This document shows, piece after piece, positions 10,498-50,442 of a stretch of DNA of 64,000 bases (positions are counted from its first letter, which is position 1; each line of letters opens with the position of its first letter). The DNA is from Halomonas sp. BDJS001 (GTDB lineage Bacteria > Pseudomonadota > Gammaproteobacteria > Pseudomonadales > Halomonadaceae): positions 1,984,001 through 2,048,000 of the forward strand of contig NZ_CP110535.1 in NCBI RefSeq assembly GCF_026104355.1, in the 5' to 3' direction. The translations under genes and the position numbers were made by a program. A model generated the notes under the pieces. The model saw nothing but the letters and a program-made list of their open reading frames with translations. It was not told the DNA's origin and did no database searches.

Positions 10498-11265
10498 CTA
10501 ACGGCTGGTGTTTATCCTGCCCGAGCTGCTCTCTTCCGGTTCAATCTGCCCACGCCGCTGCAGCCATTGCATCACGATCCAGCACAGCGCTGCCCAGCTC
10601 GCTCCGGCCGTCCAGCCGGCAAGTACATCGGTCGGCCAATGGACGCCGAGATAGACGCGGCTTATGCCCACCAGCAGGGTCAACAATATCGCCAGAATCA
10701 GCAGGTAAGCCTTCAGCCTCAGCGCGGGCTGTACGCGGATGAGCAGCGCGGCCAGGGTGAGGTAGGTCACGGCAGACATCATTGAGTGGCCGCTGGGAAA
10801 GCTCGCGGTGTAGACCATGGCTTCATGAGGCACCAGATCCGGGCGAGGGCGATCAAAGCCCAGCTTCATCACTGTGCTGAGTAGTATACCGCCGGGCACC
10901 GCGATTGAGGCAAAAAGAGCCGCGCGATAGTGTCTGGCAAGTAACAGGTAGCCCAGGGCGCCCAGTGTGATGAGTACCAGCACGCCGACACCGCCCAGTG
11001 CGGTGAAGTCCCGGCCCATTTCCTCAACCCAGCCCGGCCCGATAGGGTCGCTAAGGTCTGCGGGGTTGCGAAGGGCGAGCAGCAGGCTCTCATCGATGCT
11101 ATGGGTGTCTCCCTCGATAACTTCTTCGGCCAGCGCGACGAACCCCCAAATCCCACCGGAAAGTACCGCGACGCATAACAGCATCGCCAGTTCGTAGCGG
11201 CCGAGCCGAGCCAGTAGGGAAAAGCTTTGGCGCCCAATTTGGCCAAGTTTTTCATGGTGCTTCAT
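10498..11265 (-). CDS. PAP2-family membrane phosphatase
   Basis: 255 residues from ATG 11265 (SD AAAGGAG, 6-base spacing; a TTG two codons upstream is rejected). The three acid-phosphatase motifs are intact: KLGFDRPRP, PSGH and SRVYLGVHWPTDV. About six hydrophobic segments place it in the inner membrane with the active site at the periplasmic face. Likely substrates are undecaprenyl pyrophosphate, phosphatidylglycerol phosphate or phosphatidate; the sequence does not discriminate. Confidence 0.9.
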   Translation of the reverse strand: MKHHEKLGQIGRQSFSLLARLGRYELAMLLCVAVLSGGIWGFVALAEEVIEGDTHSIDESLLLALRNPADLSDPIGPGWVEEMGRDFTALGGVGVLVLITLGALGYLLLARHYRAALFASIAVPGGILLSTVMKLGFDRPRPDLVPHEAMVYTASFPSGHSMMSAVTYLTLAALLIRVQPALRLKAYLLILAILLTLLVGISRVYLGVHWPTDVLAGWTAGASWAALCWIVMQWLQRRGQIEPEESSSGRINTSR

Positions 11266-44182: not shown

Positions 44183-44650
44183 TTACTGAAAACGCATAAT
44201 GTCTGTGTACATCGGGGCGAGCCTGCCCAGCAGCTCATTCCGTGCGCCCAGGGGAATATCTTCTGCCTGCATTGCGGCATCAAGATATTCAACGACACGA
44301 TTAAAATGCACATCTGTCAGCCCCATATGTTGATGCGCTCGATCCATCGGCGGGCCTTCGTAGTGGCAGGGTCCATCGCTGATGTCACACAGTTGGGTGG
44401 CCAGGGATGCGGCAAATAGATCGATATTCGTGTTAGCAAAAAACACCACCACCTCGGGGTCATCCGCAATTCGGTATAAAAGATTCTCGACCACCGTATC
44501 GATAGTATCCTGCCCGCCAAGGCGCTCGTAAAGCGTTGCCGATTGAGTGGCTGTCTGATGAGTGCAGCCTGCGAGCGTAAGTGCGATTGCTGCAAAAATA
44601 ACCGCTATTAAATCACGGCGCGTACGATTGTATTTGCGTGGAAATCTCAT
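44183..44650 (-). CDS. Group-1 truncated hemoglobin, lipoprotein form
   Basis: 155 residues from ATG 44650. A lipoprotein signal (AVIFAAIALTLAGC) precedes a truncated-globin domain: ATLYERLGGQDTIDTVVENL, VVVFFANTN, LATQLCDISDGPCHYEG and the HQHMGLTDVHFNRVVEYL segment carrying the proximal heme His. TrHb1 proteins bind O2, NO or CO; export to the envelope is unusual. Last gene of the leftward operon, 10 bases after the DUF3034 gene. Confidence 0.88.
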   Translation of the reverse strand: MRFPRKYNRTRRDLIAVIFAAIALTLAGCTHQTATQSATLYERLGGQDTIDTVVENLLYRIADDPEVVVFFANTNIDLFAASLATQLCDISDGPCHYEGPPMDRAHQHMGLTDVHFNRVVEYLDAAMQAEDIPLGARNELLGRLAPMYTDIMRFQ

Positions 44651-44660
44651 AGCGCCCCGC

Positions 44661-45551
44661 TTAGAAAGCTGCTTGAAGTGAAAGATAGCCGCCGCGTTGG
44701 GAAGGTAGGCCGGCAATGTCCCCTAAGTCCAACCACGCGCCCGTGAGCGATAAATGCTTATTGAAGAAGTAAGCGCTGTAGAGACTTTGCCAATCATCTT
44801 CTTCAGCCACACTTAGGTTATCGGGTTTCTGGCGATACTCGGCGCCAACAATCCATTGCGGGGTAATAAAGACGCCCACGCTCCCCTCGGCCATCCACGA
44901 ACGCCCTTCCTGGTCACCGCCAAAACCAAGTAAACCGCCCTGGTTGGCATCGGTATTACGCAGGGTCGCGTTGAGCAGCACATTGCGCCCAGCAATCGCA
45001 CTAAATAGCAGCTTGCTGCCGCTAAGATACACGTCGGTGCCGCTTGTTTCATCAGCGCCCAGGGCGGTGGGAATAGTGCCATCAACCAGTCGCTTATGTT
45101 GCACCCCAAGGCTCCAAATGCCCCAAGGGTGATAGAGCACATCGCCGAGTAAGCGTACTTTCGCGCCATAAATATCCTGGCCTAGTTCGCCTCCCAGGGT
45201 TTCTAAATCAAGGGTTTGACGGGCCACGGAGACTTCAACACGATCATAAACATTCAGGCTGGCGCCGGTCACCGTCAATCTATAGTCGTCTACCCAAGCA
45301 CGAGTAGCGGCGGCAGTGGCGCCTATTTCCTGATCGCTTGCGGTGCTGGAAAGCACGGCCCAAGGTGATAAACCACCGCCAGCAGCCCCTTCAATAGCAC
45401 TTACCCCACCCGTACCTACAATACGGCTACCGGCAAAAGAGGGTGTGGCGGCAAGCGCTAAACAGACCGCTAAGCAAGGCGAAAGACAACCAGAGAAGGA
45501 GTGCCGAAAGGTTGAATGGGGCAGTGAAAACATAGATTGAAATACCCTCAT
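44661..45551 (-). CDS. DUF3034 outer-membrane/periplasmic protein
   Basis: 296 residues with an N-terminal signal (CLAVCLALAATPSFAG). GSRIVGTGGVSAIEGAAGGG, LSPWAVLSS, and the repeated amphipathic beta strands ending GGYLSLQAAF (terminal Phe) fit a DUF3034 beta-barrel. Terminal phenylalanine is the outer-membrane insertion signal. Overlaps the GGDEF-EAL gene by 4 bases (ATGA) and precedes the globin gene, so the three are translationally linked. Confidence 0.88.
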   Translation of the reverse strand: MRVFQSMFSLPHSTFRHSFSGCLSPCLAVCLALAATPSFAGSRIVGTGGVSAIEGAAGGGLSPWAVLSSTASDQEIGATAAATRAWVDDYRLTVTGASLNVYDRVEVSVARQTLDLETLGGELGQDIYGAKVRLLGDVLYHPWGIWSLGVQHKRLVDGTIPTALGADETSGTDVYLSGSKLLFSAIAGRNVLLNATLRNTDANQGGLLGFGGDQEGRSWMAEGSVGVFITPQWIVGAEYRQKPDNLSVAEEDDWQSLYSAYFFNKHLSLTGAWLDLGDIAGLPSQRGGYLSLQAAF

Positions 45552-47917
45552 GGCTTTCTCTGGAGCGTCTTGAGTATGGATGACATCGGGTGGGGAAGTG
45601 ACAGTGGGGTAAAGTTATCCAACCATGCGGGGAGTTCATCCGCTGGCATGGGTTTAGCAACCCAATACCCTTGTAAATAGTCACAGCCCAGCTTGCTTAA
45701 CAGCTCGGCGCTGGCGCGATTCTCAACACCCTCGGCCACTAAACGCAGTCCTAAACTGTGGCCCATTTCGATGGTCGAACTGACGATGGTTAAGTCATCT
45801 TTCTGGGAGTCGATCGCCAGCACGAAAGACTTATCGATCTTGAGTTCATCTACGGGCAGGCGTTTGATTTGCGCGAGGGAAGAGTAGCCAGTGCCGTAAT
45901 CGTCAATCGCGATACGCAGCCCGAGTTGGTTGAGCTCCATTAACGTGGACATGGCTGCATCAACGTCCTGCATAACGGCACTTTCAGTGACTTCGATACT
46001 CAGGCGGGCAGGGGAAAGGCGATAGCGTTCAAGTAAACTGGCCAAATAAGCCGCCAATTGGCGATCCACCACATCACTGGCGGATAGATTAACCGCTACC
46101 GATAAGTGATAGCCACGCTGCTGCCAGGCATGCAATTGAGCGCAGACATTGGCTAACATCCAGTGGCTAAGCATGCCGATGCTTCCCGAGCGCTCGGCCA
46201 AGCTAATGAACTCATCGGGGGGCACAAATCCTAACGACGGGTGACGCCAGCGCATCAACGCTTCGCACTGATCGACACGGCCGTTACGGGTGTCTACTTT
46301 GGGCTGGTAGGCCATCCACAGTTCACCGTTGCCCACTGCATACTGTAGATCGCGAATCAGGGTGAGCTGGCGCAAATGGTGCTCATCCTGCCCCTCCAGA
46401 TAGCGTTGATGAGGGTGCCGGTGACGTCGCGCCATATCCAGTGCTATATCGGATCGCCGCAGCAATAGTTGTGGGCTGTCGCCATGGTCGGGGTAGTTGG
46501 TTTCGCCTGCAGAAAGGGAGGGTGTAATGGGGGATTTATCAAGATCGATAGGATGGTGCAGCGACGTGAAAAGTCGGGTACGCCAGGCAAAGTCGCTTCT
46601 TGACTGCTTGACGACCAGTAGCAGCTCGTCACCGTCAAGCCGGTAGGCTGTGCTCTCCGAGCCATCAAAGTGCTGCAAGCGCTTGGCCAGGGTGACCAGC
46701 ACGTGATCCCCCAGTGCATAGCCGAAGGTGTCGTTAATGTCGCGAAAGTTGTTAATTGCCAGGCGCAGAAGGGTAAACGGCTCACCGCGTTTGATCAAAA
46801 GGCTGATATCTTCCTGGGCGCTGATGCGATTAGGCAGGTCGGTGAGTAAATCGTGACGGGACTGATGATGAAGAGTGAACTCACGCTGAGCGATGCCCTC
46901 CTGCATAGCCATTAGCGTCGATGCCAGAAGCCCGGTTTCGCTCCGCTCAGTACCGACCGGTAACTCAGTGAAACGCTCACCGCGCCCAATGCGCTGAGCC
47001 GCTTTCGCCAGTTCCATTAGTGGTTTGCTCATGCTGCGCGCGCTCCACATGGCAATGAGCACGGTAAACAGCAGAATCAGGGCGATGATGCCAAGCAGTT
47101 GCCATTGCAATGAGCGGTATGCGCCAAGCAGCTCGTTGCGTGAGAGTTGTAACAGCGCATAGGTATGGTTGGCGTCGTCTGAATAGAGCTGGCTCGCGTA
47201 GGTTAGATATTCTGCATCCGGCGTCATCTGGCTGTGTAGGGCATACTCGCCTTCGATTAACTCGTCACCACGTTCGCTCATTAACTCCAGAGCCAATTGC
47301 CCAGGGTGAGAGCTGGCTAGGTAGCTGATTTCGCCGTTGTCGCGATAGTTAACTACGCTAATGTCCAACCCGGTTAGCGCATTAATCTCTTCTGTTACCG
47401 CTTCATTAATTAAAAAGCCCATACCCACCCAGCCAATCAGGTTGGGAGCGCGCACCGGGAGCAAGGCGAATTCATAAGGCTGACCCTCGGTGATGACGAC
47501 GCTAACAGCTTGGCCCTCTTGGCGAGCCCGGTCAAAGAGCTGCGGGAAAGGCATCGGGCTATTTTGTGGATGATGGCTGCTCGCCAGGATGTGCCCATCC
47601 AGACCGCTGAGTAACACGATATCTGCCTTGGCTCGATCACCATGGTTGGCCAGCACGGAGTAAAGCGTCTCGGTATCCTGGGTGGAAACGGCGCTTTTAA
47701 AACCAAAGTCATCGGCGAGAATAGCAACGTTATTGGTTAACTGTTCACCGCGCACGTCCAGCAGCTGTGCTAATACATTGGCACCCACTTCTAAATGTTG
47801 GGATCCTTTGGCAATAACATCGTTTTGAGTCGCGCGAAGGAATGCCACTCCGGTGGCGAGTTGCGAGACAATCACCACGGTCAGCAGTACGAGCATCAAG
47901 CGCGTTCTAAAGCGCAT
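45548..47917 (-). CDS. Membrane-bound GGDEF-EAL phosphodiesterase with periplasmic sensor
   Basis: 789 residues. An N-terminal helix, a periplasmic Cache-like double domain (about 30-270: NVLAQLLDVRGEQLTNNVAI, VLLSGLDGHILASSHHP), a second helix (LLGIIALILLFTVLIAMWS), a HAMP linker, a GGDEF domain with degenerate motif (RLDGDELLLV) and an EAL domain (QCEALMRWRHP, DDYGTGYSSLAQI, LKIDKSFVLAID, LVAEGVEN). It is likely an active c-di-GMP phosphodiesterase responding to a periplasmic signal. Overlaps the DUF3034 gene by ATGA; GAGG before its ATG. Confidence 0.93.
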   Translation of the reverse strand: MRFRTRLMLVLLTVVIVSQLATGVAFLRATQNDVIAKGSQHLEVGANVLAQLLDVRGEQLTNNVAILADDFGFKSAVSTQDTETLYSVLANHGDRAKADIVLLSGLDGHILASSHHPQNSPMPFPQLFDRARQEGQAVSVVITEGQPYEFALLPVRAPNLIGWVGMGFLINEAVTEEINALTGLDISVVNYRDNGEISYLASSHPGQLALELMSERGDELIEGEYALHSQMTPDAEYLTYASQLYSDDANHTYALLQLSRNELLGAYRSLQWQLLGIIALILLFTVLIAMWSARSMSKPLMELAKAAQRIGRGERFTELPVGTERSETGLLASTLMAMQEGIAQREFTLHHQSRHDLLTDLPNRISAQEDISLLIKRGEPFTLLRLAINNFRDINDTFGYALGDHVLVTLAKRLQHFDGSESTAYRLDGDELLLVVKQSRSDFAWRTRLFTSLHHPIDLDKSPITPSLSAGETNYPDHGDSPQLLLRRSDIALDMARRHRHPHQRYLEGQDEHHLRQLTLIRDLQYAVGNGELWMAYQPKVDTRNGRVDQCEALMRWRHPSLGFVPPDEFISLAERSGSIGMLSHWMLANVCAQLHAWQQRGYHLSVAVNLSASDVVDRQLAAYLASLLERYRLSPARLSIEVTESAVMQDVDAAMSTLMELNQLGLRIAIDDYGTGYSSLAQIKRLPVDELKIDKSFVLAIDSQKDDLTIVSSTIEMGHSLGLRLVAEGVENRASAELLSKLGCDYLQGYWVAKPMPADELPAWLDNFTPLSLPHPMSSILKTLQRKP

Positions 47918-47967
47918 AGCAACCTCACTAAGTGGCTGATCGCCATCTCTTGAACACGGGTAAGGGC

Positions 47968-48669
47968 TTAAGTGGCATCTCTAAAGCGCTGTTGAAGGGG
48001 CGAGAGCGTTGGCGCTGGAGGTGGTAGTGCGTTGAGTTCTAAACTGACTTCCAACTGGTCGTTATCGGTAATGATGCCTTCCCACCAAACTTGCTGGCTG
48101 TCATCAAGTCGTGGGTGCCACACGCGCACACGATGCTCTCCAACTGGCAGCGTGGGCAGGATAAGTACGCCTTCAGCGCCCGTTGTCGCCGTGTAAGGGG
48201 CGTCGCTAACAACAATAAAAGCCTGCATATGGTCGTGAATATTGCATCCCAAAACGACTATACCGGGTTGGTCGAAGTGAACCGCTGGCGGCGTTTCTTT
48301 CAGGTAGAGATTTAAATCGAAGGTTTTGGCCGGTGAAAAAGAGTAGACGTGATGACGGGTGGTGTCTTGGTTGGGAAATGCCACATGGCTGCCGGTAGGA
48401 ACGGTTAATACCTTAGGGTGAAAGGCAGCATCGCGCTGATAAATGTTCTCCTCTTGGGGAGAGTTGCCTGCTGCCGAATCGTAGTAAACCTCAACGACTG
48501 CGTGCTCAAGCGGTTGGCCATCAGCACTGCTTATGGCTATTTGCGCAGCGTTAGCGTTAGGGACAAGCAGGGTGATTACCAGCAGTGCCAATAGCGGGGC
48601 TGCGTATGCGGTGATAAACCCGCTAAAAGGGCGATGTTGTAGTGTTGGCTGTGGCATTGAGGTCGACAT
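47968..48669 (-). CDS. Cupredoxin-like periplasmic protein (methylamine-utilisation type)
   Basis: 233 residues with a signal sequence ending PNANAAQ. TVPTGSHVAFPNQDTTRHHV and VLGCNIHDHM carry the type-1 copper ligands (His, then Cys-x2-His-x-x-Met/His). The rest has plastocyanin-like beta strands and a C-terminal carboxypeptidase-regulatory-like strand. Such proteins are often mis-named methylamine utilisation proteins. A copper electron carrier or sensor is plausible. First gene of the operon with GGDEF-EAL, DUF3034 and globin; start may be the ATG four codons in. Confidence 0.85.
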   Translation of the reverse strand: MSTSMPQPTLQHRPFSGFITAYAAPLLALLVITLLVPNANAAQIAISSADGQPLEHAVVEVYYDSAAGNSPQEENIYQRDAAFHPKVLTVPTGSHVAFPNQDTTRHHVYSFSPAKTFDLNLYLKETPPAVHFDQPGIVVLGCNIHDHMQAFIVVSDAPYTATTGAEGVLILPTLPVGEHRVRVWHPRLDDSQQVWWEGIITDNDQLEVSLELNALPPPAPTLSPLQQRFRDAT

Positions 48670-48868: not shown

Positions 48869-49225
48869 ATGAACAACGATGCAAAGCCAACCCTATTAAA
48901 GCAGCGCCGCTCTCGTCGGCAGGTGTTAACCAGTTTAGGCTTGGGCGCGGCGGCACTCTATGTGGCTCCTACATTGCTGTCGATGAATCAAGCGCAGGCT
49001 CATGATCATCGCTCTAGGCATAGTGGCCAACATAGAGGTCATTCCAGGCCTGGCTATTCAAGACCCAGCTATTCAAGACCCAGCTATTCAAAACCCCGCT
49101 ACTCAAGACCCAGCTATTCTAGGCCTGATTATTCACGCCCCTACGGACGTCGTGAACGTCGACGCTGGGAGCGCGATGGGGTGATTGAATTGCGCATTAG
49201 CCGGCTACTTCCGCATCGCTGGTGA
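48869..49225 (+). CDS. Twin-arginine-signal protein with YSRPS tandem repeats
   Basis: 118 residues. Tat-type signal SRRQVLTSLGLGAAALYVAP (15-34) with likely cleavage after NQAQA (44). The mature part is very basic with several His, then six 15-base DNA repeats (49049-49140) encoding YSRPS/YSKPR/YSRPD pentapeptides, and a tail GRRERRRWERD... ending LLPHRW. No family recognised. The stop TGA is followed after two bases by the ATG of the HPr-kinase-like gene, so the pair is coupled. Ser/Tyr in the repeats are possible targets of that kinase; inference. Confidence 0.75.
   Translation: MNNDAKPTLLKQRRSRRQVLTSLGLGAAALYVAPTLLSMNQAQAHDHRSRHSGQHRGHSRPGYSRPSYSRPSYSKPRYSRPSYSRPDYSRPYGRRERRRWERDGVIELRISRLLPHRW
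49049..49140 (+). repeat. Coding tandem repeat, 15-bp unit
   Basis: Six near-identical 15-base units around AGCTATTCAAGACCC encode the YSRPS-type pentapeptides of the Tat-signal protein. Differences between units are mainly at third codon positions, so the peptide is under selection. Confidence 0.85.
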
Positions 49226-49227
49226 TA

Positions 49228-50442
49228 ATGGCCATGAGCTCAGTGACTGACTATTCGCTTCCCGGTATAGGCCCCTGTATCCGACTGGTAGGAGCGCAGC
49301 CATTGTTGCCCGTTCTTCAAGCGGCGATGCCCGGCTGGGCATTAACGGAGTGCCCACGCCAAGCTGTTGAGCCTGATATCTGCGTTTGGCAGCAAGAAGG
49401 GGGCTACTGGCAACAGGCGAGTGCACTGCCCAGCGGCATGTGGCTTGAAACGGCAGTAGGGGCAGCCTGTAGTGTTATTGCAGATGTAGCGGGTGCTTTT
49501 TTGCGTCAACACCCTCACTATATTGGGTTGCACTGTGGCTCTGCTGAGATCAATGGTCAGCTAGTGATTTTCCCTGAATCGCACCGTGCCGGTAAAAGTA
49601 CGCTGACGTCTGCGTTTGCGGCCACAGGGTATCGAGTATTCGGTGACGACGTGGTGGCATTAACGCCTGAAGGAGAAGGTGTGTCGCTTGGCATTGCGCC
49701 AAGGCTTCGTTTGCCACTCCCCGATGCTATTAATGCCGGATTTCAGGATTTTGTCAGCGCACATCAAGGCCCAAGCGATCACCGCTACGGTTATTTAGCG
49801 CTGGATGAAAGGCTACTGGCGAACCATGGTGTGAAGCGGCCCATAGGCGCAATTATATTAATTGACCGTGACAATAGTGTCACTACTCCCAAATTATCAT
49901 CGCTTCAGCACGGGGAGGGGTTATGGCAACTGCTAAAGCAGAACTTTGCTGATACGCTTTCCGAACAGGTACTGATCACCAAGTTTTTGCCCTTGGTTCA
50001 GCGTATTCCCTGTTTTTTACTGCGCTACTCAGATGCTTACCAAGCAGCAGAGTTCGTAGGTCGCGAGCTTAAGCGGGCGCTACAAGACCAACCATCAACT
50101 TACATATCACCTTCACAGGCAGCGCCAATTCCTGAAGCAGCTGCACTGGAGAGGAGTGATCAGCGTTGTTGGCGGGCATGTAAAGCGGCCTATGAATACC
50201 CCTTGGGAGATGAACTATTTGTGATTGTCGAAGATGGTGGTGCGATTCACCGCCTGAATGTCACTAGCCGCGCCGTGTGGCTGCTACTGCAAAATGAAGC
50301 ACTGGATATAGACGAACTAAGTAAAACATTGGCCGAGTTTTTTATGCCGGTTTCCCTTGAGCAGGTTTTCAAAGATATGTCTTTATTACTTGGCCAGTTT
50401 TGGGCGGTCGGTTTAATTGAGCCGGTTATTTGTCCACGCTAA
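49228..50442 (+). CDS. HPr-kinase-like domain fused to PqqD-like domain
   Basis: 404 residues from ATG 49228 (TGATAATG junction with the repeat protein; ATG 49234 possible). P-loop PESHRAGKSTLTSAF (about 116-130), Asp pair FGDDVVAL (140-141) and PRLRLPLPD resemble HPr kinase C-terminal domain proteins. The C-terminal 70 residues (HRLNVTSRAVWLLLQNEALD then IDELSKTLAEFF) match the PqqD fold that binds precursor peptides in RiPP pathways. The upstream repeat protein may be the substrate. Related HprK-rel systems exist; a fused kinase-PqqD with this partner is not one I can name. Confidence 0.82.
   Translation: MAMSSVTDYSLPGIGPCIRLVGAQPLLPVLQAAMPGWALTECPRQAVEPDICVWQQEGGYWQQASALPSGMWLETAVGAACSVIADVAGAFLRQHPHYIGLHCGSAEINGQLVIFPESHRAGKSTLTSAFAATGYRVFGDDVVALTPEGEGVSLGIAPRLRLPLPDAINAGFQDFVSAHQGPSDHRYGYLALDERLLANHGVKRPIGAIILIDRDNSVTTPKLSSLQHGEGLWQLLKQNFADTLSEQVLITKFLPLVQRIPCFLLRYSDAYQAAEFVGRELKRALQDQPSTYISPSQAAPIPEAAALERSDQRCWRACKAAYEYPLGDELFVIVEDGGAIHRLNVTSRAVWLLLQNEALDIDELSKTLAEFFMPVSLEQVFKDMSLLLGQFWAVGLIEPVICPR

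Follow-up and report, generated by a model that had tools for sequence, protein, structure and literature searches.

In the present study, we analysed a window of 64,000 nucleotides of the genome of Halomonas sp. BDJS001, by which we mean the whole stretch of DNA examined. The host genome is complete, measures 4.97 Mb and carries the gene pair described here once. The first gene (48869..49225, plus strand) encodes a protein of 118 aa which, from its sequence and its pairing with the second gene, is a candidate precursor or substrate with a Tat-type leader and a serine-rich repeat core. The second gene (49228..50442, plus strand), recognised from its open reading frame and the profiles TIGR04352 and PF05402, encodes a protein of 404 aa in which an HprK-like kinase part is fused to a PqqD (RRE) part. 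The TGA at 49223-49225 closes the repeat-protein gene and is followed by TA and then by the ATG of the fusion at 49228, so that the arrangement given in a preliminary description of this DNA was found again on the sequence; an alternative GTG start at 49222 would give a 4-nt overlap with the upstream stop. Pairwise dN/dS values of about 0.05-0.27 show that both genes evolve under purifying selection. The nearest named relatives of the kinase belong to Vreelandella and Halomonas, with 94% identity to V. sedimenti, and a scan of genome contigs with the kinase gave no more than six near relatives. The neighbours of the pair were assigned by Pfam to cupredoxin, GGDEF-EAL, DUF3034, globin, SLT, ProS, MFS, FKBP and amidase families. 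Zero matches were obtained in an Rfam scan over the window and in comparisons with a phage collection and PHROGs, and the promoter and terminator scans at the locus gave no useful signal. On the minus strand, positions 44183-48669 of the window hold cupredoxin-like, dCache-HAMP-GGDEF-EAL, DUF3034 and truncated-globin-like genes, and this run is kept in the close relatives L089 and L090. A joint cluster of these upstream genes with the pair was considered and dropped because those neighbours recur in few close relatives only.

The first 44 residues of the 118-aa protein (48869..49000, plus strand), KQRRSRRQVLTSLGLGAAALYVAPTLLSMNQAQA, form a predicted leader or signal peptide, as judged from the sequence and from a leader profile (A3). 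It ends in QAQA, an AxA-type cleavage site, and carries a twin arginine at R16-R17 (48914..48919, plus strand) within SRRQVL. The Tat features recognised by eye are the RR motif, the h-region and the AxA end. Since the leader remained below the cut-offs of the Tat models (PF10518, 11.6 vs 22.7 bits; TIGR01409, 13.5 vs 16.7 bits) and its export is a prediction from sequence, we name it Tat-type only; TatC is encoded in the genome. In addition, the leader contains YVAPTL (48959..48976, plus strand), and this conforms to the motif [Y/W]xxPx[hydrophobic], which is bound by the RREs of lasso peptides and of LPP (PMC12710340, PMC13381572) and is expected in the precursor leader of a lasso-type RRE. 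When 20 divergent leaders were aligned, R, R, L, G, Y and P did not vary at all, that is, the twin arginines together with YxxP. Among the RR leaders that could be recognised in this genome, no second one contained YxxPx[hydrophobic]. As read from its sequence, the Tat leader itself bears the RRE recognition motif, and this is the key link that the preliminary description had missed.

Behind the leader, the core of the predicted exported protein (49001..49222, plus strand) is rich in arginine and contains 13 Ser, 7 Tyr and 0 Thr. The six YSRPS-type repeats reported earlier were recovered at 49055..49144 (plus strand) in the translation, with the units YSRPS, YSRPS, YSKPR, YSRPS, YSRPD and YSRPY in order, and Tandem Repeats Finder placed a 15-bp array at 49053-49119 (score 113). 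The C-terminal tail RDGVIELRISRLLPHRW (49172..49222, plus strand) is conserved in genus-level relatives; in other genera the tail is -PSRW. The cores of the paired proteins are wholly different from one another, with units such as YSRPS, HSRHS, PSVPSV, GGSGN, GSRGSW and SGR. In 11 representative cores Ser was the sole residue that reached at least 11% in every core, and Tyr was missing in three of the 11. Thus, serine richness is the one property retained among the cores of distant pairs. In 258 five-residue units from the relatives, conservation was 97% for Ser, 88% for Arg, 78% for Pro and 55% for Tyr, where the values for Ser, Arg and Pro are inflated by a unit finder that demands two of Ser, a basic residue and Pro. 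Because tyrosine is lacking in the cores of several paired proteins, the target of the kinase is probably serine rather than tyrosine, as far as sequence can tell; of the Ser/Tyr phosphorylation proposed earlier, the serine half therefore stands as the likelier one and the tyrosine half is disfavoured. LppK likewise acts on Ser in its own substrate, where Thr and Tyr are left unmodified (PMC13381572). Neutralisation of the charge of a basic core was also considered as a general role and was dropped, since some of the paired cores are not basic.

In the fusion, residues about 85-285 resemble HprK-related kinases (TIGR04352), with a score of 42.9 bits against an equivalog cut-off of 200, so that we did not class the fusion as a member of HprK_rel_A. 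The HPr kinase model PF07475 gave no Pfam match to the fusion, and its best score in the genome (13.7 of 33.3 bits) lies at another locus. The P-loop is atypical (FPESHRAGKST) and lacks the glycine with which GxxxxGK[ST] begins. Four residues corresponding to the His-Lys-Asp-Asp motif of the HprK-like peptide serine kinases PadeK, ThcoK and LppK are present, and all four are invariant in our alignments A1 and A5 (23 and 19 sequences), down to 26% identity. His102 (49531..49533, plus strand) aligns with the His of the HPr kinase 3tqf. Lys123 lies in the P-loop-like PESHRAGKS (49573..49599, plus strand), whose R120, G122, K123 and S124 are invariant in both alignments and which aligns with the GKS of 3tqf; Asp140-Asp141 of FGDD (49645..49650, plus strand), Walker-B-like, aligns with its DD. 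In the lasso-peptide kinases this motif is essential by mutation (PMC9266682). The HPr-kinase P-loop of the preliminary description thus holds for the Lys/GKS part, but the first glycine is missing and the HprK and HprK_rel_A models stay below their cut-offs. Because of that missing glycine, kinase activity is given here as a prediction from sequence, and the kinase fold is argued from motifs because a full-length AlphaFold model (seven sequences) reached a pLDDT of 36 only.

The C-terminal part was clearer. A PqqD/RRE domain of the winged helix-turn-helix type occupies residues 311-397 (50158..50418, plus strand), and the PF05402 match at residues 332-397 is above the gathering cut-off (27.0 vs 23.4 bits), which agrees with the PqqD-like domain claimed for the second protein. 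Profile A5 matched in the PDB the sequences of TbiB1 (4e-8), PbaB1 (2e-6), LppB (2e-6) and TfuB1 (0.013). The AlphaFold model of residues 307-404 had a pLDDT of 85.6, and in Foldseek the leader complexes of TbiB1 and TfuB1 ranked first (TMt 0.80-0.85; 5v1v, E 3e-4, TMt 0.80; 6jx3, TMt 0.82), so that the modelled domain has the fold of the B1-leader complexes. This model identifies the PqqD part as an RRE of the lasso type, for which leader binding is predicted. By alignment to 9x8z, Asn344 (50257..50259, plus strand), invariant in A1, is the equivalent of N33 of LppB, and Asp383 (50374..50376, plus strand), invariant in A1 and A5, is the equivalent of D70. Residues of these two types are common among PqqD-type domains generally, and for this reason their conservation shows competence and not specificity. 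In LppB, N33 fixes the kink at the leader Pro and D70 hydrogen-bonds the leader Tyr (PMC13381572). In one class-level relative (G261) the PqqD domain is a separate ORF overlapping the kinase ORF, as would be expected of a modular RRE.

The neighbourhood survey proposed in the preliminary description upheld the pairing. A full-length kinase relative was found in 39 of 201 genomes of the family (Halomonadaceae), and strong leader matches (E <= 6e-10) were found in exactly the same 39; the remaining 162 were without them, and neither partner occurred alone among the 201. For this search a 38-residue profile, A3, made from 20 divergent leaders, was run on the same 201 genomes. Some of the sequences in the profile came from loci that were known to us beforehand, but eight of the 39 genomes (corresponding to L075-L082) had contributed nothing to it, and the absence of the leader from the other 162 genomes does not follow from its construction. 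The next-best match scored 1e-6 and belonged to other ORFs, which are about 370-390 aa long. Outside the family, seven of the eight chromosomal kinases found are paired with a leader protein: it lies directly upstream in all five class-level relatives (G261, G358, G540, G560, G562) and in two of three new relatives at phylum level (G860, G876). In the most divergent one, G579, the kinase is split from PqqD and no such leader was found nearby. The pair is also present on annotated plasmids of Shinella and Paracoccus, where the NCBI labels of the relatives are only 'PqqD family protein' and 'hypothetical protein'. In nearly all loci the start codon of the kinase lies between about -20 and +12 nt relative to the stop of the gene before it, and outside the family no further neighbour was common to the compared loci. 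The conservation of the pair is well beyond chance; because related genomes are not independent, we attach no probability to it. G358 has one kinase with two leader proteins in its vicinity (L084:7206-7625 and 10722-11048), separated by about 3 kb.

Among the known systems, the LPP phosphopeptides of Bacillota (lppA/K/B/S/D/N, 2026) come close to this pair. They have an HprK-like kinase, a PqqD-type RRE and a YxxPx[V/L] leader, and their linear core is phosphorylated on Ser (PMC13381572); the first three are common to both, Ser phosphorylation is predicted here, and in the PDB sequence search LppB (9x8z) came out as one of the best-ranking relatives of the PqqD domain of the fusion. However, the RRE of LPP is a discrete protein and here it is fused to the kinase, the LPP core has 45 aa with one modified Ser (S3) in place of a tandem-repeat protein, and the LPP leader is unlike the Tat-type signal peptide of this pair. 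In LPP the SpI-like peptidase LppS takes off the leader, and an MsbA-like exporter and an NTP transferase are linked; none of the three was found among the Pfam-scanned neighbours in our window, and we do not assign the pair to the LPP family. The phosphorylated lasso peptides (PadeK, ThcoK, PsmK; PMC9266682) also resemble it, in that a His-Lys-Asp-Asp kinase acts on a linear precursor whose YxxP/WxxP leader is bound by a PqqD-type B1 protein. Their phosphorylation is on a C-terminal Ser (PMC9266682), unlike the repeat serines proposed here, and this locus is not a lasso peptide cluster: no B2 peptidase or asparagine-synthetase-like cyclase was present among the scanned neighbours (about 39-60 kb of the window), and the core is long and repetitive, with no lasso core.

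The HPr-rel-A system (HprK-related kinase A and PqqD_rel_X, TIGR04352/TIGR04353) has the kinase superfamily in common with our fusion. At E<0.001, all 23 aligned fusion members matched TIGR04352, eight of 23 matched TIGR04353 and seven of 23 lasso_PqqD_Strm; the HprK_rel_A-like proteins examined have GxPGxGKST and SDE, whereas the fusion has RAGKS and GDD, besides the low equivalog score given above. The redox-enzyme maturation proteins (NapD and others) are alike as cytoplasmic readers of a Tat signal peptide before export, but differ in having an unrelated fold and in acting as chaperones, with no kinase-RRE fusion (PMC3712460). Hence, the earlier statement that no named system has this architecture was partly right: an HprK-like kinase working with a PqqD/RRE and a YxxP precursor is already familiar from LPP and from lasso peptides of the paeninodin type, and the joint architecture was not found described in the open-access literature searched, a body largely exclusive of subscription papers and preprints. 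Every part is known singly and the combination is new to that literature. As read from sequence, what differs from LPP and lasso peptides is the RRE-kinase fusion, the Tat signal doubling as leader, the long repeat core and the lack of a dedicated peptidase or exporter.

It is suggested, as the rather probable reading, that the pair is a two-gene system for an exported phosphoprotein, in which the RRE reads the Tat leader, the fused kinase phosphorylates the repeat serines and Tat export follows. The C-terminal PqqD domain would bind the YVAPTL motif of the Tat signal peptide and so tether the substrate to the fused HprK-like domain, which, by its His-Lys-Asp-Asp residues, would phosphorylate core serines with ATP or GTP as the donor. 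The phosphorylated protein would then be released, exported via Tat and cut by signal peptidase at AxA, so that no dedicated leader peptidase or exporter would be needed. The leader would be read twice, first by the RRE and afterwards by the Tat receptor, and modification could thereby be coupled to export. The YxxP motif, the RRE fold and the His-Lys-Asp-Asp residues give good support to the presentation of the substrate by PqqD to an HprK-like kinase, as predicted earlier, and by analogy LPP and paeninodin provide a direct precedent for the first half of the mechanism (RRE binding and phosphorylation). For the coupling of RRE-guided modification to Tat, no precedent was found in the searched open-access literature.

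The degenerate P-loop, and a leader that is fixed while the cores vary freely, would also suit a fusion that acts as a Tat signal-peptide chaperone like DmsD, TorD or NapD, with the PqqD domain shielding or proofreading the leader and the P-loop domain binding or hydrolysing nucleotide to time its release, without phosphorylation of the cargo. There is a precedent for a protein that binds a twin-arginine signal peptide in which the functions of transport and chaperone binding overlap (PMC3712460). We consider this unlikely, as all four catalytic residues of the HprK-like lasso kinases are invariant in the fusion, Ser richness is the sole property that the cores retain, and small cofactor-free repeat proteins have no obvious need for proofreading. 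The HprK-like domain might, on the other hand, make a different modification: it could phosphorylate Tyr, His or Arg, which the cores at this locus contain, or build polyphosphate chains on a single Ser, as several phosphates are placed on one Ser by lasso kinases and LppK (PMC9266682, PMC13381572), or phosphorylation could be followed by elimination or glycosylation through enzymes encoded elsewhere. An extra NTP_transf_5 gene in a related lineage (L130, PF14907, 125 bits; L131) points in this direction. However, Tyr, His and Arg are each missing from some paired cores, and no lyase, glycosyltransferase or nucleotidyltransferase gene adjoining the pair was found by Pfam among the window neighbours; a modification of this other kind seems quite unlikely to us.

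Much of the family carries the pair at the same chromosomal site, close to fkpB-like/ampG and slt/proS, and inherited gene order alone could bring together a fusion and an unrelated, ordinary secreted structural protein. This we hold to be very improbable, because the pair recurs in other families, in alphaproteobacteria and on plasmids, where those neighbours are missing, and because of the family survey, in which the two partners were never separated. If the two-gene phosphoprotein system is true, it would join RRE-guided peptide modification and Tat export, two fields that seldom meet. It would be the simplest RRE-kinase system known to us, with two genes, no peptidase and no transporter, and would offer a natural interchangeable set of Ser-rich cores. 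Substrate modification as a control of Tat entry, and the role of exported phosphorylated repeat proteins, would then become testable.

A wider proposal can be made tentatively. It is possible that Proteobacteria have, in these pairs, a new class of exported phosphoproteins whose Tat signal peptide is also the RRE leader. The RRE-kinase fusion would phosphorylate many serines of a repeat core and gate Tat export, and the leader, which could be grafted onto folded enzymes (for example the Shinella and Paracoccus subtilases), would serve as a portable tag for pre-export modification. On plasmids of these two genera (L144-L147; e.g. L145:1046-2383 and L145:2481-2741) an operon holds a subtilase (PF00082), a small Ser/Gly/Arg repeat protein and the kinase-PqqD fusion. 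The subtilase and the small protein both have RR-YxxP leaders, in the subtilase the same leader is followed by a Ser-rich stretch, and a divergent ECF sigma factor lies upstream. By its sequence, this operon fits a leader that could be grafted onto folded cargo.

Some variants were also noted. In Paracoccus marcusii CP157 the small precursor gene (L144, around 2500-2930) has an apparent frameshift after the leader and is unannotated; it is intact in two related plasmids. Three genes at L130:7992-10783 and L131:453-3065 encode an RR-FLKKAGKFAVYTPP peptide of the RR-YTPP type, a PqqD-HprK fusion in reversed domain order and an NTP_transf_5 nucleotidyltransferase, a variant which suggests that the union of a Tat leader with an RRE motif is a wider theme. 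A third arrangement was seen at L139:1405-1623 and 1803-2684, where an HprK-like kinase adjoins another RR leader with YVAPAIL.
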